In this document: positions 1-36,013 of the stretch, in pieces
Layout of the letters: each line of letters opens with the position of its first letter
Numbering within the stretch: position 1 is the stretch's first letter
NCBI GenBank assembly: GCA_017937705.1
Contig: JAGBDC010000030.1
Location: forward strand, 1-38,589
Source of the DNA: Alphaproteobacteria bacterium
GTDB lineage: Bacteria; Pseudomonadota; Alphaproteobacteria; RF32; CAG-239
Reading direction: 5' to 3'
DNA length: 38,589 nt
Notes under the pieces: generated by a model
Seen by the model: the letters and a program-made list of their open reading frames with translations, nothing else
The model's database searches: none
Told to the model about the DNA's origin: nothing
Made by a program: the position numbers and the translations under genes

Positions 1-733
1 AATCGGAACTATCAGGGATAAGGGCTATAAGCTTGAGGACTTGGAGTTTATTATTGATAATTCAGATGGTGAAAAAGTTTATCTTCGTAAGCTTTTGACA
101 CATTCTATATCAGTAGAATTCCAAGGTAAGACCTATGATTTAACTGCCAAAGTAGAGCTCCGTAGATTTGTTGGTTATCATCCTTGCGTCGTGGAGAGTA
201 CTCTTATTGGTTCAGAAGCATATGTGTCAGGATCTGTGGTAGAGTCAGTGATGAATATTCATCGAGTTTACTCTGATGGAAAAGAGAATACAGATCCTAT
301 AATATGCGAACTTGGTGTTTTTTTAGAACCAAATGATGTGGATTATGTAGAGATATTTGGTTATAAAAATAACCTAACTATTATTGAATCCTCATTAAAG
401 CAAGGCGATACTAATTATCGTAGTACCGATCATGAGCATGTTGTATGCATTCGTCATAATGATTTTTGGAATGTCAGATATAATTATTTTGATATTAATA
501 TAAAGGTTATTTATGACGAAGCATGGTATGATGATGGTATTTTAAGATGTCAGTTCCCTAATGTTGAAATGACAAATATTAGTAGTGCTGTGCCGGAAGT
601 TGTATTTGAAAATTCAGGCACAAATGAGAAAGGCAATTATTCGGTATATTGGTTGAATCAACGTGTTACTGCTAATGTAGGAGAGCTTAATCTGGAGGCT
701 ACCGGAATCAAACAAATTGTTGCCTACGAGTAA
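1..733 (+). CDS. Unknown protein, 3' part only (cut by left window edge)
   Basis: The reading frame is open from base 2 and has no stop before 731-733, so the gene begins outside the window. The TTG at 41 is inside the open frame and has no Shine-Dalgarno, so I do not take it as the start. About 243 residues are visible. They look beta-rich and mostly polar, with no membrane segment, and I recognise no family. The first visible residues (TIRDKGYKL) recall the end of an OmpR-type winged helix, but nothing after them supports a response regulator. The end is marked by a strong hairpin shared with the convergent SMR gene. Certain as a coding region, function unknown. Confidence 0.75.
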   Translation, partial: IGTIRDKGYKLEDLEFIIDNSDGEKVYLRKLLTHSISVEFQGKTYDLTAKVELRRFVGYHPCVVESTLIGSEAYVSGSVVESVMNIHRVYSDGKENTDPIICELGVFLEPNDVDYVEIFGYKNNLTIIESSLKQGDTNYRSTDHEHVVCIRHNDFWNVRYNYFDINIKVIYDEAWYDDGILRCQFPNVEMTNISSAVPEVVFENSGTNEKGNYSVYWLNQRVTANVGELNLEATGIKQIVAYE

Positions 734-750
734 TCGGCAAATCTCTAATT

Positions 751-789
751 AAAAACACCGCTGTCTTTTATGACTGCGGTGTTTTTTTT
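751..789. terminator. Bidirectional intrinsic terminator
   Basis: An inverted repeat with arms AACACCGC and GCGGTGTT is flanked by A and T runs on either side. It lies between the ends of two convergent genes (733 and 806) and can serve both. Confidence 0.85.
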
Positions 790-805
790 GTAACAATTTA
801 TAAAA

Positions 806-1150
806 TTATCCTTGGATTGTGTTTGAGAATACGTTTAAGACAATAACGCCGGCAATAATCAATGCTAAGCCTATATATGCCGGAATGTCTAAATTTTCTC
901 CCAAGAAAAAATACCCGAATATAGAAATGAGAACAATTCCTAAGGCTGACCATATTGCATAGGCGATTCCTACCGGAATAATTTTTACTACTATGGCTAA
1001 AAGATAAGAAGCAACGACATAACCGACAACGGTAATTAAAGTTGGTATAGGTTTTGTAAATTGCTCTGATAATTTTAAGTAAAACGTTGCAACAGCTTCG
1101 CTTGCAATCGCTAAAACAAGCAAAATATACATAATTGTAATCTGACTCAT
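806..1150 (-). CDS. Small multidrug resistance (SMR/EmrE-like) transporter
   Basis: 114 residues with four hydrophobic segments, the normal size of an SMR protein. E18 in the first helix corresponds to EmrE Glu14, the membrane-embedded proton and drug binding residue. The GIAYAIWSALGIVLIS stretch matches the EmrE signature around Trp63, and the last helix has the usual small residues of the dimer interface. SMR proteins work as antiparallel dimers in the inner membrane and exchange protons for cationic compounds or guanidinium; which class this is cannot be told here. A Shine-Dalgarno GGAG lies about 6 bases before the ATG. It is monocistronic and convergent with the truncated gene to its left. 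Confidence 0.93.
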   Translation of the reverse strand: MSQITIMYILLVLAIASEAVATFYLKLSEQFTKPIPTLITVVGYVVASYLLAIVVKIIPVGIAYAIWSALGIVLISIFGYFFLGENLDIPAYIGLALIIAGVIVLNVFSNTIQG

Positions 1151-1209
1151 AAAAAACTCCGTTTTATTACACCTATGAATACAGGTTACTTCATATATTT
1201 TGAAATGTC

Positions 1210-1235
1210 AAAAGAAAGCTCCTCAAAAGAGGAGC
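1210..1235 (-). terminator. Intrinsic terminator of the recombinase gene
   Basis: GCTCCTC, a four-base loop and GAGGAGC (1218-1235), followed on the minus strand by TTTCTTTT. It lies just past the stop codon at 1245. Confidence 0.85.
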
Positions 1236-1244
1236 AAAAAAATA

Positions 1245-1844
1245 TTAGAATGATAAAGGATTCTTTTGTAAATATCTGTACAAAGTACCTCTACCGCATT
1301 TTAGATTTTGAGCAATATTTTTCATAGATAATCCTTCTTCTTTCATTTTTTTAACCTTATCTCTTTTGTCATCAAGCTTGTTTTTTCCTGTACTCCCAAA
1401 AGGTCTACCCAATTTTTTTCCGTCTTTTTTTACTCTTGCTAATGCTTCTTTAGTTCGAGAAGATATAAGAGTTCTTTCGATTTCTGCGGATAAAGAAAAA
1501 GCAAAGGCCAACACTTTAGACTGAATATCTGCTCCTAGGCGATAATTATCTTTTATGGTCCAAACCTGACAACCGATATTCATACAATATGATAAAATCG
1601 CCATTACTTGTAACAAATTTCTTCCTAAACGAGATAATTCGGTAGATATTAAAATATCGCCTTTTTTCAATCGCTTTAATAAATAACCTAATTTTCGCTT
1701 TTCTAATTTTTTTGTTGCACTGATTGTTTCTTTAATCCAAAAATCGATAATAATATTGTTTTTGTTGGCAAATTTTTCTATTTCAAATAATTGATTTTCG
1801 GTTGTTTGTTTATCCGTACTGACACGGATATATCCATATATCAT
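1245..1844 (-). CDS. Serine recombinase of the resolvase/invertase family (Mpi/Hin/Gin-like)
   Basis: 199 residues, the usual length of a small serine recombinase. The N-terminus reads YIRVSTDKQ with the nucleophile Ser at residue 9. The conserved ELSRLGRN motif follows near residue 70 with the active-site arginines, and the long E helix leads to the GRPFG linker near residue 147. The last 40 residues form a helix-turn-helix DNA-binding domain. The start of the protein resembles the Bacteroides master invertase Mpi, which flips promoters between short inverted repeats. Shine-Dalgarno AAGGAG lies 6 bases before the ATG. No invertible segment or clear crossover pair is visible beside it, so targets may be distant. 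It could instead be a resolvase left by a mobile element. Confidence 0.93.
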   Translation of the reverse strand: MIYGYIRVSTDKQTTENQLFEIEKFANKNNIIIDFWIKETISATKKLEKRKLGYLLKRLKKGDILISTELSRLGRNLLQVMAILSYCMNIGCQVWTIKDNYRLGADIQSKVLAFAFSLSAEIERTLISSRTKEALARVKKDGKKLGRPFGSTGKNKLDDKRDKVKKMKEEGLSMKNIAQNLKCGRGTLYRYLQKNPLSF

Positions 1845-1900
1845 GATTTTCTCCTTCGTTAAAGTTAATAACGATTTTTATGATATATCTTAAAACAATG

Positions 1901-1928
1901 TGGACAGATTAGGTTTTTGGTATATAAT
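1901..1928 (+). promoter_or_regulatory. Sigma70-type promoter of the small lipoprotein gene
   Basis: TGGACA (1901-1906), 16 bases, then a perfect TATAAT (1923-1928). The predicted transcript would have a leader of about 37 nt before the ATG at 1972. Confidence 0.7.
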
Positions 1929-1971
1929 GCGACGAAACTAAAATTATTATAAACCTTAAAATTTAACCAAA

Positions 1972-2184
1972 ATGAAGAATTATTTTAAGTTAATTGCTTT
2001 GTCGAGTGTTTTGTTTGTTATGAGCGGTTGTTATTCTTATACTGCAGTGAGTTATCCGGCACAAAAGTCACACCACAATTCGGAACCAAGTCCGATGTCG
2101 TCAAAGCCTGAGATACAAAAATCTTTGAGTATAAAACCGGCTCCTCCGGTTGATAACCATTTGCTTTATCTGCAAAGTAAATAA
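1972..2184 (+). CDS. Small lipoprotein, unknown function
   Basis: 70 residues. A charged start and a hydrophobic stretch end in VMSGC, a lipobox with the lipidated cysteine at residue 20. The mature part is about 50 residues, rich in Pro, Ser and Lys and probably unstructured. No family is recognised. It has its own promoter and terminator, which supports a real monocistronic gene. There is no Shine-Dalgarno; the leader instead carries AACCTT about 20 nt before the ATG, a pattern shared with other genes in this window (see findings). Confidence 0.75.
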   Translation: MKNYFKLIALSSVLFVMSGCYSYTAVSYPAQKSHHNSEPSPMSSKPEIQKSLSIKPAPPVDNHLLYLQSK

Positions 2185-2189
2185 AAAAT

Positions 2190-2242
2190 AAGTCAATTTT
2201 TTAGCGGTATCTTAAAAAAAGAACCGCTTTTTTATTTGACTT
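2190..2242 (+). terminator. Intrinsic terminator
   Basis: AGCGGT and ACCGCT arms (2203-2228) followed by TTTTTT, with an outer pair AAGTCAA/TTGACTT that lengthens the stem. It directly follows the lipoprotein stop. Confidence 0.75.
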
Positions 2243-2285
2243 CGATAAATGTTAGTGCTTAAACTTATTTCAATGGAGAAATAAA

Positions 2286-3284
2286 ATGACCAGAGATGAA
2301 GTTTTAAAACAAATAGGTTCTTTGAGTAAAGGTGAAGAAAGAGCAACGCTTCTTGAAGATGAAAATATAAGGAATGCGGTTTTAAGCAGCGGAGCAAATG
2401 TTACTCTTTACAGCGGTCAGCTACGAGAAGGTAGTTCATTTGAAGAACGTTTTTCAGATGTTTATATCGGTTTAATTCAACGAAAAAACAGACAAGGCAA
2501 AAAAGATGGGTTGGGAGCTTTGGGAGGTTTAGCCGAACGTACCGGTCATTTGGAATTTGCTCGTACTCCTAAAAGTGAAAGAATAAAGCTGCTCGGTCAA
2601 AAAGATGACGTTATTTTAGACGGTGAAAATGTAATATTAACTGATGATATGGAAATTATTCGTAAAAATAACGTAATGCGAGAAATGAGAGAAGAGTTGA
2701 GCGATTTAGGAATGGATGATATTTCAATTAATCCTGAAAAAATGGAACTTATCCCAATGCCCAAAGTAAAAGATGACAATTATATGATTAATATTTGGGA
2801 CGGAAAAGGTGAGTGTTATGCCATTACCCCATATTGTCATCTTTACGAAGATACAGAAAATTTAATGGAGAGAATAGTTGAAAAATCGTCTGAACAAGTC
2901 GGTGGCGAAGTTGTGTCATATCAAAAAGTAAATTTATTTGAGGTGTTATCTGCTTTTGGTAACAAAGGAACAAAAGAAGATTCCTTGGAAGATGGCAGAA
3001 ACGCAACAAAAGATTATCGTTACCCACATGAATATCTTGTTTCTTGGACGTTGGCTGCAAAAATGCTAAATCATAATCCAAAAGACATGATAAGCTTAGC
3101 GCAAGAAGTTCAACAAAAATCAGACCATCCGGTGTCTTTCTACAGAATAGCAAAAGCGACCGGTCAGACTATGGAAGACGTTGCGGAGATTATGGGAATT
3201 GATAAGGCAACTCTGCTAAAAATGGATGAAAAATCTTATGCGGCGGAAAAACAGAAAATGAGTGATTTTTCGGTTGAGAAATAA
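2286..3284 (+). CDS. Nudix-like hydrolase with an interrupted Nudix box
   Basis: 332 residues. GALGGLAER at 77-85 looks like the first half of a Nudix box, and REMREEL followed by LG at 132-142 is the second half (RExxEExxG), which carries the metal-binding glutamates. About 46 residues separate the halves where the normal motif has only a few. Nudix proteins cleave nucleoside diphosphates linked to another moiety; the substrate cannot be guessed. The C-terminal 60 residues (TGQTMEDVAEIMGIDKATL) look like a small helical, possibly helix-turn-helix, domain. The start is set by GGAG eight bases upstream. Nudix membership is my inference from the two half motifs. Confidence 0.65.
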   Translation: MTRDEVLKQIGSLSKGEERATLLEDENIRNAVLSSGANVTLYSGQLREGSSFEERFSDVYIGLIQRKNRQGKKDGLGALGGLAERTGHLEFARTPKSERIKLLGQKDDVILDGENVILTDDMEIIRKNNVMREMREELSDLGMDDISINPEKMELIPMPKVKDDNYMINIWDGKGECYAITPYCHLYEDTENLMERIVEKSSEQVGGEVVSYQKVNLFEVLSAFGNKGTKEDSLEDGRNATKDYRYPHEYLVSWTLAAKMLNHNPKDMISLAQEVQQKSDHPVSFYRIAKATGQTMEDVAEIMGIDKATLLKMDEKSYAAEKQKMSDFSVEK

Positions 3285-6434: not shown

Positions 6435-7259
6435 TTAAAAGTTTGTCAATTTAGCATCGGACGCAATCTTATTGACGACATTTTTTACATATCGGTCAAT
6501 TTTCTTTCCGGCAGAATAGTCTGCGGGAGCAAAAATATTGACACGTCCCTCTTCAAACAGCCTTTCGGCTCTGCTTTTGGCTTTTTTGTTATAAGGCTGA
6601 AAAACTGAAATACAGTATCCTCCCAATCTTTTAATCATTGACATACAAGGAACATCAGTGTCACCGTCTCCAAAATAAATCATGTGACTAAATGGAACGG
6701 GACGATCCTCAATGGCCATTGGCGAGTTTACACTCTTATCCAAAGGATCGAGGCAACCTTTGTTAATGCGGAACAAATATTGTGTCTTGTCGGTATAGTT
6801 TACGACACGGGCAGGCCAAACAGCGGCTCCGTATTCGTCATACATATAAGACGAGGCATATATTTGTTTGAAATTTTTGGCAATTTTAGAACCAAGAGCA
6901 ATCTCTTCCAACCCTGATGAGATAATGTAGTGTGAGAGTCTGATGCCTTTTTGCAAAGCATAGGCGTTGATTCTGTCAAACCACTCTTCAACACCTTTGA
7001 AGAAGGTAATATCATCTCCGCATTTAACAAAATCTTCACGACGAAAAGCAACTTTACGAGCTTTAGCTTCTTCGAGCATACAACGCATATAGCTCAAGTT
7101 ACTGTCCGCACTTTCTTGTTGGGTCATCTTATCGCACTTGCTCCAAAAAATTTCGGGTGCAATGTTTAACATTTTTAAAAAGCCATACTCTTGCATATTT
7201 CCTGCGGCAAGAGTTCCGTCAAAATCGTAGATTAAAGCTACATCAACATATTTTTTCAT
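6435..7259 (-). CDS. HAD-family phosphatase (phosphoserine-phosphatase-like)
   Basis: 274 residues. Motif I is DFDGTL with Asp12 and Asp14. Motif II is in HYIISSGLEE, and motif IV is YFGDGDTDVPCM. A cap region lies between motifs I and II (about residues 20-100). Proteins of this type dephosphorylate small molecules; the substrate cannot be inferred. A basic C-terminus follows. The start is fixed by the motif I position; no Shine-Dalgarno is present, but ACCTT lies 14 nt upstream. It is divergent from the trp leader, sharing an intergenic region of 109 bases. G and C are more frequent at third positions than in the trpB gene next door. Confidence 0.88.
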   Translation of the reverse strand: MKKYVDVALIYDFDGTLAAGNMQEYGFLKMLNIAPEIFWSKCDKMTQQESADSNLSYMRCMLEEAKARKVAFRREDFVKCGDDITFFKGVEEWFDRINAYALQKGIRLSHYIISSGLEEIALGSKIAKNFKQIYASSYMYDEYGAAVWPARVVNYTDKTQYLFRINKGCLDPLDKSVNSPMAIEDRPVPFSHMIYFGDGDTDVPCMSMIKRLGGYCISVFQPYNKKAKSRAERLFEEGRVNIFAPADYSAGKKIDRYVKNVVNKIASDAKLTNF

Positions 7260-7286
7260 AATAAATCTAAGGTATATTTTTTTGTC

Positions 7287-7315
7287 AAAATAGCATAGGA
7301 ATTATAAAATTTCAA
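7287..7315 (-). promoter_or_regulatory. Promoter of the HAD phosphatase gene
   Basis: On the minus strand TTGAAA (7315-7310), 17 bases, TATTTT (7292-7287). A TTGACA nearer the gene (7288-7283) has no -10 that would leave room for a leader, so I prefer this pair. Confidence 0.5.
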
Positions 7316-7333
7316 TAGATTTTATTTTATACC

Positions 7334-7361
7334 TTGATTTTTGCTCAATAGGTTTTAATAT
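7334..7361 (+). promoter_or_regulatory. Promoter of the trp leader
   Basis: TTGATT (7334-7339), 16 bases, TAATAT (7356-7361). Transcription would start near 7368, at or next to the leader ATG at 7369, giving a leaderless reading frame. A leaderless trpL is known from Sinorhizobium meliloti, which supports the placement. Confidence 0.55.
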
Positions 7362-7368
7362 AGATACT

Positions 7369-7440
7369 ATGATTGATAATGATTTGAACATATTTATTTC
7401 AAGTATAAAAGTTGCTCCATGGAAATTCTGGTGGTGCTGA
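7369..7440 (+). CDS. trpL: Tryptophan leader peptide (attenuator peptide)
   Basis: A 23-residue reading frame that ends WKFWWC before TGA. It has three Trp codons, at residues 18, 21 and 22, all within five codons of the end. Trp is rare, so this clustering in a short frame 80 bases before a trpB gene is the hallmark of ribosome-mediated trp attenuation. No Shine-Dalgarno precedes it; the promoter position suggests a leaderless start, as in rhizobial trpL. The stop codon sits in the loop of a GGTGC/GCACC hairpin. I infer that lack of charged tRNA-Trp stalls the ribosome at 7429-7434 and changes RNA folding so that trpB is expressed. Confidence 0.8.
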   Translation: MIDNDLNIFISSIKVAPWKFWWC

Positions 7441-7476
7441 TGCACCGTTTTATCTGTTTTAAAAGGTTAGTTACCT
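7433..7476 (+). promoter_or_regulatory. Putative trp attenuator RNA
   Basis: Three overlapping pairings can be drawn. GGTGC/GCACC (7433-7446) is followed by a T-rich run. ACC plus TTTT with AAAAGGT (7444-7467, one bulged G) excludes it. A weak AGGT/ACCT (7464-7476) excludes the second. This resembles the 1:2, 2:3, 3:4 logic of attenuators, but no textbook terminator with a long stem is present, so the mechanism is not settled. Confidence 0.45.
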
Positions 7477-7520
7477 ACAACTGCAATCAATTTTCAATAA
7501 TGTATATAGGATTATAAGAA

Positions 7521-8702
7521 ATGGAAAATTCAAAAGGATTTTTCGGTGTTTACGGAGGTTCGTATATTTCCGAACAGTTACAGGCCGAAATGAATAAAAT
7601 TGAAAAAGCATATAATGAAATAAAAAACAATCAGCAATTTTTAGAGCAAATGCAATATATTCGTCGAACTTATCAGGGACGCCCGACCCCGATTACTTAT
7701 GCTAAAAATCTAAGTAAAAAAATTGGTGGAGGACAAATATATTTAAAAAGGGAAGACCTAAATCATACCGGAGCCCATAAATTAAACCACTGTATAGGCG
7801 AAGTTTTATTAGCAAAATTTATGGGTAAAAGCAAAGTGATTGCAGAAACCGGAGCCGGACAGCATGGAGTAGCGATGGCGACGGCAGCAGCATATTTAGG
7901 TTTGGAATGTGAAATTCACATGGGTAAAAAAGACATTATAAAAGAAAAACCGAATGTTTTGCGAATGCAGTTGTTGGGAGCAAAGATAATATCGGTTGAT
8001 AAGGGGCAACAAACCCTAAAAGAAGCTATCGATAGTGCTTTTGCATCTTATGCTCAAGATTATGAAAACAGTTTTTATTGTATAGGTTCCGTTGTCGGTC
8101 CTCATCCTTTTCCGACAATGGTAAGAGATTATCAATCAATAATAGGAATAGAAGCAAAAGAGCAAATGATTTTTGAAACAAATGCTTTGCCCGATGCAGT
8201 TGTTGCTTGTGTCGGTGGCGGAAGTAATGCAATCGGAATTTTTAGTGCGTTTATAGAAGATGAAAAAGTGAAGCTCTATGGCGTTGAACCGCTTGGAAAA
8301 GGTGATAAAGTAGGAGAAAATGCCGCTTCCATTGCTTTTGGAAAAGACGGAATATTGCATGGATTTAAGTCAAAAGTTATTATGGATGAAAATGGTGAAG
8401 TTGCACCGGTGTATTCAATAGCCAGCGGTTTAGACTATCCTTCTGTCGGTCCGGAACATGCATTTTTACATAGTATAAAAAGGGCGGAATATGTGCAAAT
8501 AGACGACAAAGAATGTTTGGAGGCATTCTATCTGTTGCCGAAAGTTGAAGGAATTATACCGGCATTGGAAAGTGCTCATGCAGTTGCCTATGCAATTAAA
8601 TTGGCTAAAGAAACCTCGAACGACTATAAAATATTAGTCAATCTTTCCGGACGTGGAGATAAAGATATGGACTATGTTGTCGAACATTATGGAATGCGAT
8701 AA
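7521..8702 (+). CDS. trpB: Tryptophan synthase beta chain
   Basis: 393 residues, full length. The numbering matches Salmonella TrpB almost exactly. The PLP lysine is Lys87 in HTGAHKLNH and the catalytic Glu109 is in AETGAGQHG. The phosphate loop is GGGSN at 232-236, Asp305 is in [10 protein letters not shown], and Glu350 is in the PALESAHA stretch. It joins indole and serine into tryptophan with PLP. Two substitutions next to the lysine are unusual (Thr88 to Leu, Gln90 to His). No trpA or other trp gene is in the window, so the partner alpha chain is elsewhere or absent. AGGA lies about 9 bases before the ATG. It is preceded by the Trp-codon leader and followed by a strong terminator, so it is transcribed alone. 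Confidence 0.96.
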
Positions 8703-8729
8703 AAATGGGGGAATATCCCCCATTTTTTT
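8703..8729 (+). terminator. Intrinsic terminator of trpB
   Basis: Nine-base arms AAATGGGGG and CCCCCATTT with loop AATAT, followed by a T run, starting one base after the trpB stop. Confidence 0.93.
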
Positions 8730-8799: not shown

Positions 8800-10860
8800 A
8801 TGCAAAAAGATTTTCAAGGAGTCAGAGCTAAGAAAAATAAAACGGAGTTTTGCGTTCGTGCTCCTGCGGCTGAACAAGTAGATTTATGCCTTTTTACTCC
8901 TGATGAAAAAAGAGAAGTTCGTGTTCCTATGGAGCGTGATGATAATGGAAATTGGCATGCAGAACTTCCGGGAAACCTTGATGGGCAAAAATACGGATAT
9001 AGAAGTCATGGGGAATATAATCCTTATGTTCGCCATTTTTTTAATCCTAATAAGTTGCTTGTTGATCCGTATGCTCATGAATTGACCAGAAGTCTTCATG
9101 ATATAAGCGATTATGAAAAACATGTGTTGCTAAGCACTAATAATCTTAATTCAGCACCGGTAGCCCCCAAAAGTGTAGTTCGTTTTTTGGATAAGGAAGA
9201 ATTAGCAAAAAAATTTCCGTATTTATATCAAAAACCACATATAGATTGGGGAAAAACGCATATTTATGAACTGCATGTCGGTAATTATTCTGCCCAACAT
9301 CCCGATATACCGATACAAGACAGAGGAAAAATTTCTGCAATCGGACAAACTATCAATTATTTAAAATCGTTAAGCTATAATCAAATAGAATTAATGCCTT
9401 TGACTCCAACAATGGCAGATTGGCAACTGCAACAAACAAAAGGATTGTCCGATCAATGGGGATATAATCCGATAAATCATCATGCCATAGACCCTCGATA
9501 TGGTAATATTTATGATTTTTTAGCACTTATTAACGAGCTTCATAAAAATGGAATTGAAGTCAGTATGGATATGGTTTTTAATCATACCGGAGAATTTGGA
9601 ATTGATGATTTTTTGTTGTCGTATAAAGGGTTAGATGCGGAAGGTTATTATCGCTTTGACAACAAAGACGGATATAGCTTTGTTAATACTACCGGTTGTA
9701 AAAACGGATTCAATCCTAATACTGGTCAAGGAAGCCGTTTAATCAAAAACAGTTTAATGTTTTTTGCAGATACTTGCGGTGTTGATGCTTTTCGTTTCGA
9801 TTTAGCTGGAGATTGTGCATTAAATAATGATTTGATTTTTGATGCAAACGGCAAATTTATGCAAATAATAAGAGACGTTTCTGATATTACGGGAGTTAAA
9901 ATAAGCGGAGAGCCGTGGAGTGCCTGTGGGGGATATTATTTAGGACAAATGACCGGCTTAAGTGAGTGGAATGATAAACACGAAAAAACACTAAGACGAT
10001 TTATCCGAGGTGATTATGAACAAATCGGAAAGCTTGCCTTTCACATGTCGGGGAGTGAAGCCGCCGGAAAAATTAATATATTTACCAAGCATGATGGAGC
10101 GACCCAATATGATTGGGCCACATATTCGCAAAAAAATAATTTTGCAAATAACGAAAATAATCAAGACGGTTCTAATGATAACCACTACAGTCCTTCACAA
10201 AATGATGCTCAGCGCCTTATAAAAACGAAAACAGCACATGCAATGAATACATTGGCAAGAGGGGTACCATTAACATTGAGCGGTGATGAATTATGGCATA
10301 CACAAAATGGTAATAATAACGGATATGCTCAAAGTTTTCCGTTGCAATGGCAAAAATTCAGTAAAGAACAAAGAGAAAGATATGTTTTTGAAAGAAAAAT
10401 AAATGCTTTCCGCCAAGAACATCCTATTTTCAGTAGTATCGAAAATGCAACCCCCGATATTATGCCCAACGGCAAGCCGGCATGGGATTGGATAAACATT
10501 TACGGTGAAACAATGAAACAAAGCGATTGGGATTATAAGTATAATCGTTTTCTGGGATATGTTCTTAATGGCGAAGATAAATCCGGACATCGCTTCGATG
10601 ATGATTTTTTTGTTATGATGTCCGGAAATTCCGATTCAATAATGAAAGTTAATTTACCGGCAACTCCTCATCATGGTAATTGGCAAGTTGTGTTTGATAC
10701 ATCAAAATCAAATAGTGAAAAAGATATTTTTCAATATAGTTCGGGAGCGGAATATTATATAAAGCCGCATAGCATGGTTGTAATGACTTGTCGTCGCCCG
10801 CAATCAGATGAAAATAACCGCCAAATTATACCGATAACGAAAAGTGGCTACGACAGATAG
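8800..10860 (+). CDS. glgX: Glycogen debranching enzyme (GH13 isoamylase type)
   Basis: 686 residues. An N-terminal CBM48-like beta domain (about 5-110) precedes the GH13 barrel. The four conserved regions are visible: DMVFNH (257-262), FRFDLAG with the nucleophile Asp334, the acid Glu371 in SGEPW, and KHDG (430-433). A C-terminal beta domain ends the protein. It hydrolyses alpha-1,6 branch points of glycogen left by phosphorylase. No other glycogen gene is close, although in many bacteria glgX sits with glgB, glgC, glgA or glgP. A GGAG lies about 11 bases before the ATG. The stop is TAG, which matters for judging the amber codon at 37322. Confidence 0.92.
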   Translation: MQKDFQGVRAKKNKTEFCVRAPAAEQVDLCLFTPDEKREVRVPMERDDNGNWHAELPGNLDGQKYGYRSHGEYNPYVRHFFNPNKLLVDPYAHELTRSLHDISDYEKHVLLSTNNLNSAPVAPKSVVRFLDKEELAKKFPYLYQKPHIDWGKTHIYELHVGNYSAQHPDIPIQDRGKISAIGQTINYLKSLSYNQIELMPLTPTMADWQLQQTKGLSDQWGYNPINHHAIDPRYGNIYDFLALINELHKNGIEVSMDMVFNHTGEFGIDDFLLSYKGLDAEGYYRFDNKDGYSFVNTTGCKNGFNPNTGQGSRLIKNSLMFFADTCGVDAFRFDLAGDCALNNDLIFDANGKFMQIIRDVSDITGVKISGEPWSACGGYYLGQMTGLSEWNDKHEKTLRRFIRGDYEQIGKLAFHMSGSEAAGKINIFTKHDGATQYDWATYSQKNNFANNENNQDGSNDNHYSPSQNDAQRLIKTKTAHAMNTLARGVPLTLSGDELWHTQNGNNNGYAQSFPLQWQKFSKEQRERYVFERKINAFRQEHPIFSSIENATPDIMPNGKPAWDWINIYGETMKQSDWDYKYNRFLGYVLNGEDKSGHRFDDDFFVMMSGNSDSIMKVNLPATPHHGNWQVVFDTSKSNSEKDIFQYSSGAEYYIKPHSMVVMTCRRPQSDENNRQIIPITKSGYDR

Positions 10861-29791: not shown

Positions 29792-31045
29792 TTAGAAATT
29801 GTAGGTGATAGAACCTGCCAAGATATTAACTTTGTTTGTATATGTTGCATTGAATGCACCACGTCCTTCGTCACCATAGTGATTGCCACGCAAGTTAACT
29901 TTTGCTTTGTCAGCATCAATATATGTATAACCTACATTAAATGTTAACTTGTCATTATATTTATATTCAAGACCGGCAGAATACCACAAACGGCTACTGT
30001 CAGGAATACGAGGTGTACGATATTCGGTACCGACAGCACCTTGTTCATAAGCGATACCTAAACGCAACTTCCATTGTTCGTCGAGTTTTTTACTAACACC
30101 GAAAGCATAGAAAGATGTATCTTTCCAGCGTTCAGGAGTAAAGCTCATTTGACCATTTTTTTCGCCTTCAATAACTAAGTTTTTGAAGCTTGACCAATAT
30201 ACACGGTTATATTCGGCCATAACAGCCCAATCGTTATTGATTTCGTGATATGCGCCAATAGTTAAAGAAGCCGGAGTTGTCAAACGAGTAGAAATGTCTT
30301 GATTCATTCCCATAGCACCCAACAATCCGTCAAATTCGATATCGCCTTGTAATTTGTGGCGAACTTGGCTACGATATCCGATACCGAAACGAGTACCTTC
30401 GTTCAATTCGTATAAAGCACCTAATTGATATCCGAGGTCAACAGTAGTACCTTGTAATGTAGCTTTGTCTTCAATAACCGCAACTTGAAGGTCTTTTCTT
30501 ACACCATTGCGTAATTTAGCTTCAATATATTGAATTTGCAAACCTGCCCCGAATGACAATTTATCATTAGCTTTATAAGCTACCATCGGAGTAAAAGTTG
30601 CACTGATGATTTTTGATAATGTACCATGAAAACGACCGGACCAGTCATCGCCGTACTTGGTAATCATACCATAAGGGGTATTCATAGAAAGACCGGCTGT
30701 CCATTTTTCATTAATTTGATGAGAAAAATAAGCCATCGGAGATGCTGCAGGGTGAACAATGTTACCCATGTAGTCATTATGTTCGCCAAATTCGTTATTT
30801 GAATTGCGAGCAGAAGAGTTTGGAGAAATCCATGTTCCACCCAATTCGATTTGAGTTCCTTTATGGCGAGTTAAACCGGCCGGGTTAAAGAAAGAGTAAG
30901 AAATATCTTCTGCTCCGGCAGTTGCACCGGCATAAGCATTACCTTGTGCGGCAGCAGATTGTTCTTTTAAGAAAAATCCAGATGCGTTAGCATTTGAACA
31001 TGCAAGAACCACTCCGAGAGCAGTCAAAGTCAAAATTTTTTTCAT
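29792..31045 (-). CDS. fadL: Outer membrane long-chain fatty acid transporter, FadL type
   Basis: 417 residues. A signal peptide of about 21 residues ends SNANA. The mature protein begins SGFFLKEQSAAAQGNAYAG, the FadL plug-domain signature, followed by SYSFFNPAGLTR (matching the NPA motif). A 14-strand barrel with alternating Tyr and Gly follows, and the chain ends SITYNF with the C-terminal Phe. FadL proteins let long-chain fatty acids and other hydrophobic molecules cross the outer membrane by lateral diffusion. It lies divergent from aas, whose product could use the fatty acids. No Shine-Dalgarno is seen; AACTAAATTTAAAC lies about 25 nt before the ATG. Confidence 0.93.
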   Translation of the reverse strand: MKKILTLTALGVVLACSNANASGFFLKEQSAAAQGNAYAGATAGAEDISYSFFNPAGLTRHKGTQIELGGTWISPNSSARNSNNEFGEHNDYMGNIVHPAASPMAYFSHQINEKWTAGLSMNTPYGMITKYGDDWSGRFHGTLSKIISATFTPMVAYKANDKLSFGAGLQIQYIEAKLRNGVRKDLQVAVIEDKATLQGTTVDLGYQLGALYELNEGTRFGIGYRSQVRHKLQGDIEFDGLLGAMGMNQDISTRLTTPASLTIGAYHEINNDWAVMAEYNRVYWSSFKNLVIEGEKNGQMSFTPERWKDTSFYAFGVSKKLDEQWKLRLGIAYEQGAVGTEYRTPRIPDSSRLWYSAGLEYKYNDKLTFNVGYTYIDADKAKVNLRGNHYGDEGRGAFNATYTNKVNILAGSITYNF

Positions 31046-34657: not shown

Positions 34658-34825
34658 ACTATAACCTTTCATCAAGTTTAATTTTACTAATTCTATTCTC
34701 ATTATTAAATTTTACAATATAAAAATTTGACATAGTTGAATTATAAGGAAAACGTTGTCCGACTGTTGACAAATCTTGCTCTTATGTTAGCTTTTTTAAG
34801 TAATAACGCACTAAAGGAGAAAATT

Positions 34826-36013
34826 ATGACCAATCAGCCGACACGTTACATCGGAACATCTGTTTACGGCGTTAGAATGCCGATTATCAAACAAGGCGCA
34901 GATATTGCAAACATTATCAGTGATACGATTATTGAATCCACTAAGTCAGAATATCAGCCGCTTATTCTAAATAATGGTGATATTGTAGCAATAACCGAAT
35001 CATTTTTAGCTCGCGCTCAAGGTAATTACGCTAAATTAAGTGATATAGCAACCGAAGTTTCTTCTCGTTTTCCACAAGGAGATGTAGCTGTAGCTTTTCC
35101 GATCTTATCTCGCAATCGATTTGCCAAAATTTTAGAAGGTATTGCTCAGGGAGTTAAAGGGACAGTTTATGTTTGTTTGTCCTATCCGGCAGATGAAGTG
35201 GGTAATGCAATTATGGATGAAGACGATTTGTTCAATTCGGAAATAAATCCATATTCGGATATTATGGAAAAACAAGATTTTCGTGATAAGTTCGGTACAT
35301 ATAAACACCCGATAACCAATACTGACTATATTGAACTTTATGAAGCTGTTTCGCCGAATATAAAAGTTGTTTTACTCAATAATCCTAAAGATATTTTGAA
35401 ATATACAAAACAAGTGATTGTTGCCAGTATCCACGTTCGCAAGCGTCATAAAAAGATTTTGGTTGATGCCGGCGGAGACGTGATGACACTTGATGAAATA
35501 TGCAATACTCCGTCAGAAAACAGAGGTTGGAGCGAATTTGGAGTTCTCGGTTCTAATTTTTCGGATAAGGACAAATTGAAACTGTTTCCACGTGATGCGA
35601 TGAATTTTTGTAAAACGTTGCAAGAAATATTTAAGGCTAAAACCGGAAAACACATAGAGGTTATGGTTTACGGCGATGGTGGTTTCAAATGTCCGAAAAC
35701 CAAAATTTGGGAATTTGCCGATCCGGTCGTATCTCCGGGTTATACTTCAGGATTAGAGGGAATGCCTAACGAAATAAAAATAAAGGCCGTTGCCGACAAT
35801 AATCAAGGCAATTTGGAAGAGGCCATCAAAAAGGCAATAGATGAAAAAAACAAAGGTAGTGACAACTATTCATTAGGAACAACGCCACGTCAAATAACCG
35901 ATTTGTTAGGTTCGCTATGCGATTTAACAACCGGTTCCGGCGAAAAAGGAACTCCGGTTGTGCTGATAAAAGGATATTTTGATAATTATCTGACCGGCAT
36001 CCCTACCGAATAG
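34826..36013 (+). CDS. CofE-like ligase (coenzyme F420-0 glutamate ligase family)
   Basis: 395 residues from the ATG at 34826, set by AGGAG 7 bases upstream. The protein opens with IGTSVYGVRMPIIKQGADIANII, matching the start of CofE proteins, and continues with NNGDIVAITESFLARAQGN, the family's conserved GD and E-S region, then ILVDAGGDVM and MVYGDGGFKCP. CofE adds glutamate to F420-0, yet no other F420 gene is here and most alphaproteobacteria lack F420. It may be a gamma-glutamyl ligase for another acceptor. This is an inference from partial motif similarity. TTGACA at 34766 with TAGCTT 16 bases later may be its promoter. Confidence 0.75.
   Translation: MTNQPTRYIGTSVYGVRMPIIKQGADIANIISDTIIESTKSEYQPLILNNGDIVAITESFLARAQGNYAKLSDIATEVSSRFPQGDVAVAFPILSRNRFAKILEGIAQGVKGTVYVCLSYPADEVGNAIMDEDDLFNSEINPYSDIMEKQDFRDKFGTYKHPITNTDYIELYEAVSPNIKVVLLNNPKDILKYTKQVIVASIHVRKRHKKILVDAGGDVMTLDEICNTPSENRGWSEFGVLGSNFSDKDKLKLFPRDAMNFCKTLQEIFKAKTGKHIEVMVYGDGGFKCPKTKIWEFADPVVSPGYTSGLEGMPNEIKIKAVADNNQGNLEEAIKKAIDEKNKGSDNYSLGTTPRQITDLLGSLCDLTTGSGEKGTPVVLIKGYFDNYLTGIPTE

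Follow-up and report, generated by a model that had tools for sequence, protein, structure and literature searches.

The locus described here lies in a stretch of 38,589 nucleotides, hereafter the window, from an alphaproteobacterial genome (G000 in what follows) of 1.58 Mb in 34 contigs with a completeness of 99.15%. The closest relative bearing a name is a metagenome-assembled alphaproteobacterial genome from the colon of roe deer (L009, contig JAFTWG010000015.1). A single trpB gene, preceded by a short reading frame that closes with tryptophan codons, is flanked by two unrelated genes, and the following features can be recognised:

6435-7259, strand opposite to trpB: HAD-like gene, the upstream flank of trpB
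7334-7361, plus strand: promoter-like TTGATT (7334-7339), 16-nt spacer and TAATAT (7356-7361), 8 of 12 matches
7369-7440, plus strand: leader frame MIDNDLNIFISSIKVAPWKFWWC-stop, 23 codons with the ATG at 7369, no Shine-Dalgarno core upstream, probably leaderless
7420-7422 and 7429-7434, plus strand: Trp codons W18 and W21-W22, read from the sequence
7435-7437 and 7438-7440, plus strand: Cys codon and stop TGA, the end of the leader
7433-7446, plus strand: hairpin GGUGC-UGAU-GCACC, stem kept in G050 and G023 and compensated in G174
7447-7461, plus strand: U-rich tail GUUUUAUCUGUUUUA, 10 U of 15
7464-7482, plus strand: possible pairings AGGU/ACCU or AGUU/AACU, no U-run directly after
7508-7511, plus strand: AGGA, candidate Shine-Dalgarno of trpB by sequence reading
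7521-8702, plus strand: trpB, 393 aa, lone tryptophan synthase beta chain, catalytic motifs intact
8707-8720, plus strand: trpB terminator, hairpin and T-run found by the terminator scan
8800-10860: GlgX-like gene, the downstream flank of trpB

As the original prediction had it, trpB is a single gene with its own terminator hairpin. The same isolation was observed in the relatives, where the genes next to trpB include no trp gene: flagellin and a cytidylyltransferase-like gene in G050, Band_7 and (across a contig break that splits trpB) a carboxypeptidase in G023, and pilin-type genes and a methylguanine methyltransferase in G174. AsnA lies 3' of trpB in G092 and a KAP NTPase gene in G094, with no trp gene among the scanned neighbours, and G225 has a VTT-like gene (a weak match below the cut-off). 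The neighbours of the leader-trpB pair hence differ between the genera represented by G000/G002, G050 and G023; a comparison of the insertion site with G013 recovered an orthologue of the flanking HAD gene at 74% and no match for GlgX within 1.5 kb. Elsewhere in the window, a FadL/TodX-type outer membrane transporter (PF03349) is encoded at 29795-31045 on the minus strand and a protein with an F420-0:gamma-glutamyl ligase domain (PF01996) at 34736-36010 on the plus strand, the latter in an alphaproteobacterial genome.

The encoded protein scored 557.9 bits against TIGR00263 (cut-off 392.45), which places it among the TrpB1 equivalogs, and it carries GAHK, ETGAGQ, GGGSNA, LDYP.VGPEH and SGRGDKD, which we take to be the TrpB catalytic motifs. 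The Pfam models of TrpF and TrpA found no match in its own genome, and TrpC was not found in any of the seven trpB-bearing genomes of the family, that of the window included; the models of trpA, trpC and trpF were each positive in 14/14 control genomes. Nothing above the cut-off for TrpA appeared in the six other trpB-bearing genomes, one weak sub-cut-off match being seen in G151 (E 5.5e-4), although the absence of pathway genes weighs less in some of these relatives because their genomes are incomplete (G092 59%, G151 86%, G050 88%). TrpB itself is rare in this group: it is present in 2/14 genomes of the genus and, at E <= 1e-60, in 7/153 genomes of the family and 3/110 of its good-quality genomes. 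The idea of indole salvage put forward in the original prediction is strengthened by these data. Indeed, since trpA, trpC and trpF are not found in a 99%-complete genome, the simplest role of the lone TrpB is most likely the conversion of salvaged indole and serine into tryptophan; judging from these three genes, the bacterium is apparently unable to make tryptophan from scratch. Salvage of exogenous indole through TrpB is described for bifidobacteria of the gut, in which TrpB is fused to TrpC (PMC11085991).

According to PMC11917138, six positions govern the stand-alone activity of ancestral TrpB (the LBCA-type Res6 set E36, E42, T53, S187, A279 and M280). At these positions, mapped by hand, the residues in the TrpB of the window are Q, Q, T, S, F and K; this TrpB shares two of the six (T56, S190 in its own numbering) and so falls outside the LBCA-type stand-alone set. 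Phenylalanine at position 282 is common to 79/79 of the loci L010-L088 and to G002, G050, G023, G151, G174, G180 and G094, whereas G092 has Y and G225 has A. This position (window numbering) is placed within the alpha-beta interface with TrpA (PMC11917138), and F282 would suit a TrpB that works without TrpA, a fit which is no proof of activity. Lone-type TrpBs carry T56, S190 and F282 where S, T and N are found in 23, 23 and 22 of 26 ordinary alphaproteobacterial TrpBs, respectively.

Coming to the leader, the frame that had been claimed, 23 codons ending in WKFWWC and a stop 80 bases before trpB, is borne out in its coordinates, the gap between its stop codon and the trpB ATG covering 7441-7520. 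As in leaders of the trpL type, Trp codons are grouped in a short frame that precedes a trp gene. Frames that start with ATG, run for 8-40 codons and have WW within the last six residues occur twice in the window, as compared with a mean of 0.4 and a range of 0-2 in 20 Markov-1 simulations; the frame alone is thus only mildly unusual, and its significance derives from its conservation. The loss of the Trp codons in relatives keeping trpB, which the original prediction had named as contrary evidence, was looked for, and the frame turned out to be kept in G002, G050, G023 and G174, whose TrpBs show 70-98% identity. The leader peptide is MMINFDIENISFSKNTSWQFWWC in G050 (23 or 22 codons, depending on whether the first or the second ATG is taken as the start), MKQTSIDILTLNFNITGNIAWWC in G023 (23 codons) and MIMTSLVSFSSARVFWWR in G174, a member of another family of the same class (18 codons, to which an upstream in-frame ATG would add three). 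It ends in WWC-stop in G000/G002, G050 and G023, that is in three genera, and in FWWR-stop in G174; W18 is present in G000/G002 and G050 and absent from G023 and G174, and the tandem WW is invariant among the seven leaders compared. No leader frame was found before two TrpBs of the class at 62% identity, those of G151 (300 nt, with trpR directly in front) and G180 (350 nt). The G002 leader differs from that of the window at one position in 152, outside the frame, while trpB third positions differ at 25/393 (Fisher p 0.003); the leader does not stand out by this measure, because the preceding 148 bases, which lie partly within the next gene, differ at none.

The distribution of the leader was also examined at a wider scale. 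The pattern TGGTGGTGCTRRNGCACC matched exactly in 4/154 genomes of the order, each time about 75-80 bases before trpB, and in 5/154 when up to one mismatch was allowed, the fifth match (G108) not lying before trpB; the reversed pattern, used as a control, matched in 2/154. An exact wider pattern gave two matches in 385 sampled genomes of the class (the window and G195), with three for the backwards control. Two of these matches were judged to be due to chance: that of G108, a genome outside the seven with TrpB at E <= 1e-60, which by eye falls within coding sequence, and that of G195, where TGG replaces the stop. A covariance model (R1) built from four leader rows, three of them distinct, recovers its own leaders at E <= 4.1e-14 by construction and revealed no fifth member over the 154 genomes, the next best match having E 0.0156; the other matches (77/154 genomes at E <= 1, the four leaders included, with 0.0156 as the best of the rest) were taken as noise. 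A search of the order of G174, which comprises only three genomes, added no further member. Among distant TrpB loci, mostly from Clostridia, a WW frame of 8-40 codons occurs within 350 nt upstream in 1/79 (L064), and among TrpB loci of the class in 3/29 (L203, which is G174, L208 and L230, which is G225). The 18-base pattern matched 62 viral-contig stretches, none of which encodes TrpB at E <= 1e-10, and a TrpB search of viral contigs returned no relative. Rfam gave no match to 7250-7560 up to E 10; at E <= 0.5 over seven loci, the sole match overlapping a leader was Histone3 on the other strand of G050 (E 0.37), below its gathering score and at chance level.

One might argue that the frame arose by chance and has no function, trpB being constitutive or controlled elsewhere. 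The mild rarity of the frame (two found, 0.4 expected), a promoter that is weak when taken alone and a leader no better conserved between G000 and G002 than the bases preceding it would be in keeping with such an idea, which we nevertheless regard as highly improbable in view of a frame that is kept in three genera and also in another family, of exact-pattern matches that in the order occur only before trpB, and of the compensatory change in the stem described below.

The promoter placing the transcript start at the ATG fared less well than the frame: the pair TTGATT-16-TAATAT does end 7 nt before the leader ATG, a spacing that fits such a start, but its score is weak and is tied at 8/12 by the rival pair TTGATT-19-TATAGA, which ends 4 nt before the ATG. 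Since 95/1430 ATGs of the window score at least 8, the promoter score of the window is weak evidence and the spacing common to several leaders is a better one; the general promoter scan, which needs 9/12, does not list the leader promoter. A -10-like hexamer stands 7 nt before the ATG in 5/7 leaders (G000, G050, G023, G092 and G225), when counted from the first ATG in G050 and G225 (10 nt from the second) and, in G000 and G092, when the appropriate one of two equally scoring pairs is taken; the spacing is 9 nt in G094, and G174 has no clear promoter. Wherever a promoter is visible it scores 8 to 11 of 12, and all seven leader ATGs lack a Shine-Dalgarno core in front of them. The promoter spacing would thus fit leaderless transcription, in part depending on which ATG is chosen.

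The hairpin overlapping the Trp codons is indeed present and spans part of the last of them: its 5' arm GGUGC (7433-7437) consists of the GG of W22 and the Cys codon, and it forms five pairs (counted by script, as for the other leaders) with the 3' arm GCACC (7442-7446), so that the stop codon and one further base make up the loop. G000, G050 and G023 share an identical stem, with the loops UGAU, UGAG and UAAC, respectively, whereas G174 has GGCGC-UAG-GCGCC, in which one U-A pair has become C-G on both sides while Cys has become Arg; this suggests that the pairing, and not the peptide, is conserved, the compensatory evidence consisting of one pair in one lineage with a stem invariant among the other three. 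A 1:2 hairpin as in trpL, which takes in the last part of the Trp codons together with the stop, occurs in all four distinct leaders of this type. The simulated chance of a Watson-Crick partner for GGUGC just after the stop (loop 3-5) is 0.0009 per leader at the same base composition, and stem energies range from -6.4 to -7.6 kcal/mol. The 15 bases after the hairpin contain 10 U in G000, 9 in G050, 12 in G174 and 4 in G023 (one-sided chances of such U-richness 0.0068, 0.0255, 0.0002 and 0.77, respectively, values which cannot be multiplied because the 15-base window was chosen post hoc and the four lineages are related by descent).

That no classical strong terminator is visible was confirmed, as the terminator scan between leader and trpB shows only the Trp-codon hairpin itself, which it rates terminator-like (7430-7449, tail TTATCTGTTT); the GC-rich terminator with a downstream U-run that characterises the 3:4 pairing of trpL-type leaders was not found in the window. 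The switch had been called unusual, and this holds for the missing downstream terminator but not for the hairpin with the stop in its loop, which also occurs in G225, over the last Trp codon, and in G094, just after the Trp codons, each time followed by a further hairpin and a U-run (in G094 by reading only). As for the alternative pairings that had been proposed after the frame, they can be drawn, but they are no better than shuffled sequences (z -0.09 for 7429-7510 and +0.46 for 7369-7510). Fold z-scores from the Trp codons onward are -0.09 in G000, -2.75 in G050, -0.91 in G023 and -0.51 in G174, so that G050 alone clearly beats its shuffles. G050 has a 7-pair downstream hairpin without a U-run, while in G174 and G023 weak downstream hairpins are followed by U-rich sequence.

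On these grounds a classical three-way attenuator with the same tryptophan sensing might be considered, in which the Trp-codon hairpin would serve as the 1:2 pause hairpin, ACC-UUUU (7444-7451) would pair with AAAAGGU (7461-7467) as the 2:3 antiterminator, and AGGU/ACCU or AGUU/AACU would form a weak downstream terminator. This explanation is possible, if rather doubtful. It draws on the stop-in-loop hairpins of G225 and G094, which do have hairpins with U-runs further on, on some downstream hairpin being predicted in all four lineages, with U-rich sequence after it in G023 and G174, and on predicted folds of G000 and G023, which switch to the 2:3 pairing when the 5' arm is taken away. However, this removal yields no such switch in G050; G174 folds without the 2:3 pairing and its downstream hairpin differs in sequence; no U-run directly adjoins the downstream hairpins of G000 and G050; and the fold of the window region equals the shuffled level.

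Rho-dependent attenuation, again with the same sensing, would dispense with a terminator hairpin: a ribosome at the tandem Trp codons would shield a Rho-loading stretch, which its release at the stop would expose. The position of the Trp codons next to the stop and the absence of a strong intrinsic terminator are in agreement with this possibility, and a comparable proposal was made, by analogy with tna, for terminator-less actinobacterial cys leaders (PMC1262725); we nonetheless consider it unlikely, as it leaves the U-rich tails of three lineages unexplained. Even less probable is a translational control, in which the leader would alter access to the trpB start. A pairing AAUUUUC/GAAAAUU around this start is predicted in the 3' part of the G000 leader, but it is absent from the G050 and G023 folds, where the Shine-Dalgarno bases are unpaired with a probability of about 0.6 and of 0.6-0.9, respectively.

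Whatever the release step, a tryptophan-responsive control of trpB by ribosome stalling on the leader is probable in our opinion. The tryptophan-starvation switch for trpB that had been inferred is supported by the conserved frame and hairpin, the response itself being an inference. Stalling is the most economical reading because the invariant part of the conserved frame is the WW adjoining the stop, and that tryptophan is sensed in this way, at the leader Trp codons, appears from the sequences to be very probable. A control by tryptophan starvation also fits the gene, in agreement with the T-boxes of clostridial relatives (8/9 scanned) and with the Trp repressor gene upstream of trpB in G151. 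The leader would thus work like a trpL-like, ribosome-mediated attenuator of a single trpB, the product of which would turn salvaged indole and serine into tryptophan. With charged tRNA-Trp in short supply, the ribosome would slow down at W21/W22 and prevent the GGUGC arm from pairing, so that RNA polymerase would read on into trpB; when it is plentiful, the hairpin would form and, together with the U-rich tail, pause or release the polymerase.

The candidates for release are an intrinsic event at the Trp-codon hairpin, an intrinsic event at a weak downstream hairpin, or a Rho-dependent one. We give tentative credence, somewhat short of an even chance, to release at the single hairpin as the output step, and no single output mode rises above this level. 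The stem common to four lineages and the U-rich tail common to three argue for a one-hairpin device, whereas the weak stem energies and the lack of a U-rich tail in G023 argue against it. With a textbook ribosome footprint, moreover, a stall at the first Trp codon, W18, leaves the hairpin free, which would give the wrong sign. Terminators placed in the first 100 bp of an Escherichia coli coding region suffer little interference from ribosomes unless the polymerase pauses (PMC4824070), and a direct blocking by the ribosome would accordingly need a polymerase pause. In its most reduced form, the device would have the last Trp and the last sense codon as the 5' arm, the stop codon as the loop and the U-rich tail at once after the stem, with neither antiterminator nor downstream terminator, and it would have travelled with, or have been kept by, the stand-alone trpB. 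Such a minimal one-hairpin attenuator, forming with its trpB a self-contained indole-salvage cassette of tryptophan-auxotrophic Alphaproteobacteria, is a speculative possibility that we hold to be rather unlikely as a whole.

The phylogenetic tree of TrpB (a quick tree of 76 rows whose careful search is unfinished, 39/79 of the L010-L088 rows being excluded) groups the window, G002, G050 and G023 in one clade (support 99), near which, beside G180, the TrpB of G174 is poorly placed; clostridial and other TrpBs form a neighbouring group, and the ordinary alphaproteobacterial TrpBs lie on the far side of the tree together with G092, G094 and G225 (clade, support 96). The leader requires two changes on this tree, although it may have arisen only once; as placed there, the TrpBs of the class that have a Trp leader fall into two distinct sets. 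The second of these comprises TrpBs without a trpA after them, in G092 (L005), G094 (L006) and G225 (L230), with leaders that read NWWWFY, NLWWSFS and NWWWLS; their promoter spacing (7 nt in G092 and G225, 9 in G094) also fits leaderless starts, and downstream hairpins with U-runs are found in all three.

Other regulators precede trpB in other lineages. A T-box was detected upstream of trpB in 8/9 clostridial loci scanned (E <= 0.001; hand-picked from 79), namely L010, L012, L015, L018, L019, L021, L027 and L028 (within 2334-2873), only L019 exceeding the Rfam gathering score, so that at this score a T-box precedes trpB in 1/20 loci; the T-box core motif lies within 700 nt upstream in 47/79. 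The specifier position of the clostridial T-boxes reads UGG, by eye only, and L012 also harbours a divergent PALP-family gene (463 aa, 726-2117, minus strand), possibly TrpB2, with its own T-box (2194-2452, minus strand). A trpB-like gene under a T-box is reported from Dehalococcoides (PMC2494555). In G151 (L004), which belongs to the same family as the window, a Trp-repressor gene (1502-1810, minus strand; PF01371, E 1e-15) stands directly before a lone-type trpB, a related salvage gene that appears to be under a different control. The leader of the window sits where clostridial TrpB relatives carry a T-box, and we can only guess that one replaced the other, in a direction which the tree does not give.

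It is useful to compare this leader with the systems already described. Sinorhizobium meliloti is known to have a leaderless trpL in front of trpE(G) (PMC7298713). Like the leader of the window, this trpL is alphaproteobacterial, short and furnished with consecutive Trp codons, and a ribosome-dependent attenuation is to be expected in both; the transcript start at the ATG is known for the former and inferred for the latter. The S. meliloti trpL, however, acts on trpE(G), its host having three trp operons, and a terminator does form (PMC7298713), whereas the leader studied here stands before a lone trpB, with trpA, trpC and trpF not found and no strong terminator visible. It works, in other words, like a classical attenuator and is not filed as one because the downstream terminator is missing. 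The putative TrpL peptides encoded between trpR and trpB in Chlamydia are likewise predicted Trp leaders before trpB in a salvage setting, but they are longer (40 and 59 residues) and have trpR in front, and the one of C. trachomatis, described as atypical, is not validated (PMC3937554, PMC7755916); the leader of the window, by contrast, is short and conserved, includes a conserved hairpin and stands before one gene alone. A precedent for a one-hairpin device is offered by the ilvB leaders of actinobacteria, in which the regulatory codons and a candidate terminator hairpin overlap, although these leaders serve other amino acids and genes, have polyU-runs, and their mode of regulation is described as unclear (PMC1262725). 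The clostridial trpB T-boxes belong to a related TrpB and probably respond to the same input, the charging of tRNA-Trp, but they are tRNA-binding leaders and not translated peptides. In the trpR-trpB arrangement of G151, the trpB is of the lone type and from the same family, whereas the repressor gene lies directly upstream and no leader is found within 300 nt.

In the open-licence literature searched, no Trp leader before a lone trpB was recognised, which is not a claim of its absence from print. What is new here is that a lone salvage gene carries a trpL-like leader whose RNA switch is reduced. This leader is among the smallest candidate attenuators, and its diverged copies allow side-by-side tests of the minimal RNA structure. 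Different lineages seem to use different sensors before this gene, that is, a Trp leader peptide, a T-box and probably TrpR. Gut indole arises from bacterial tryptophanase (PMC11085991), so that the control of the conversion of indole into tryptophan is of ecological interest. If the reading proposed here is true, tryptophan attenuation would not be bound to a biosynthetic operon, and bacteria whose pathway has been lost could still keep one salvage enzyme under tryptophan control.
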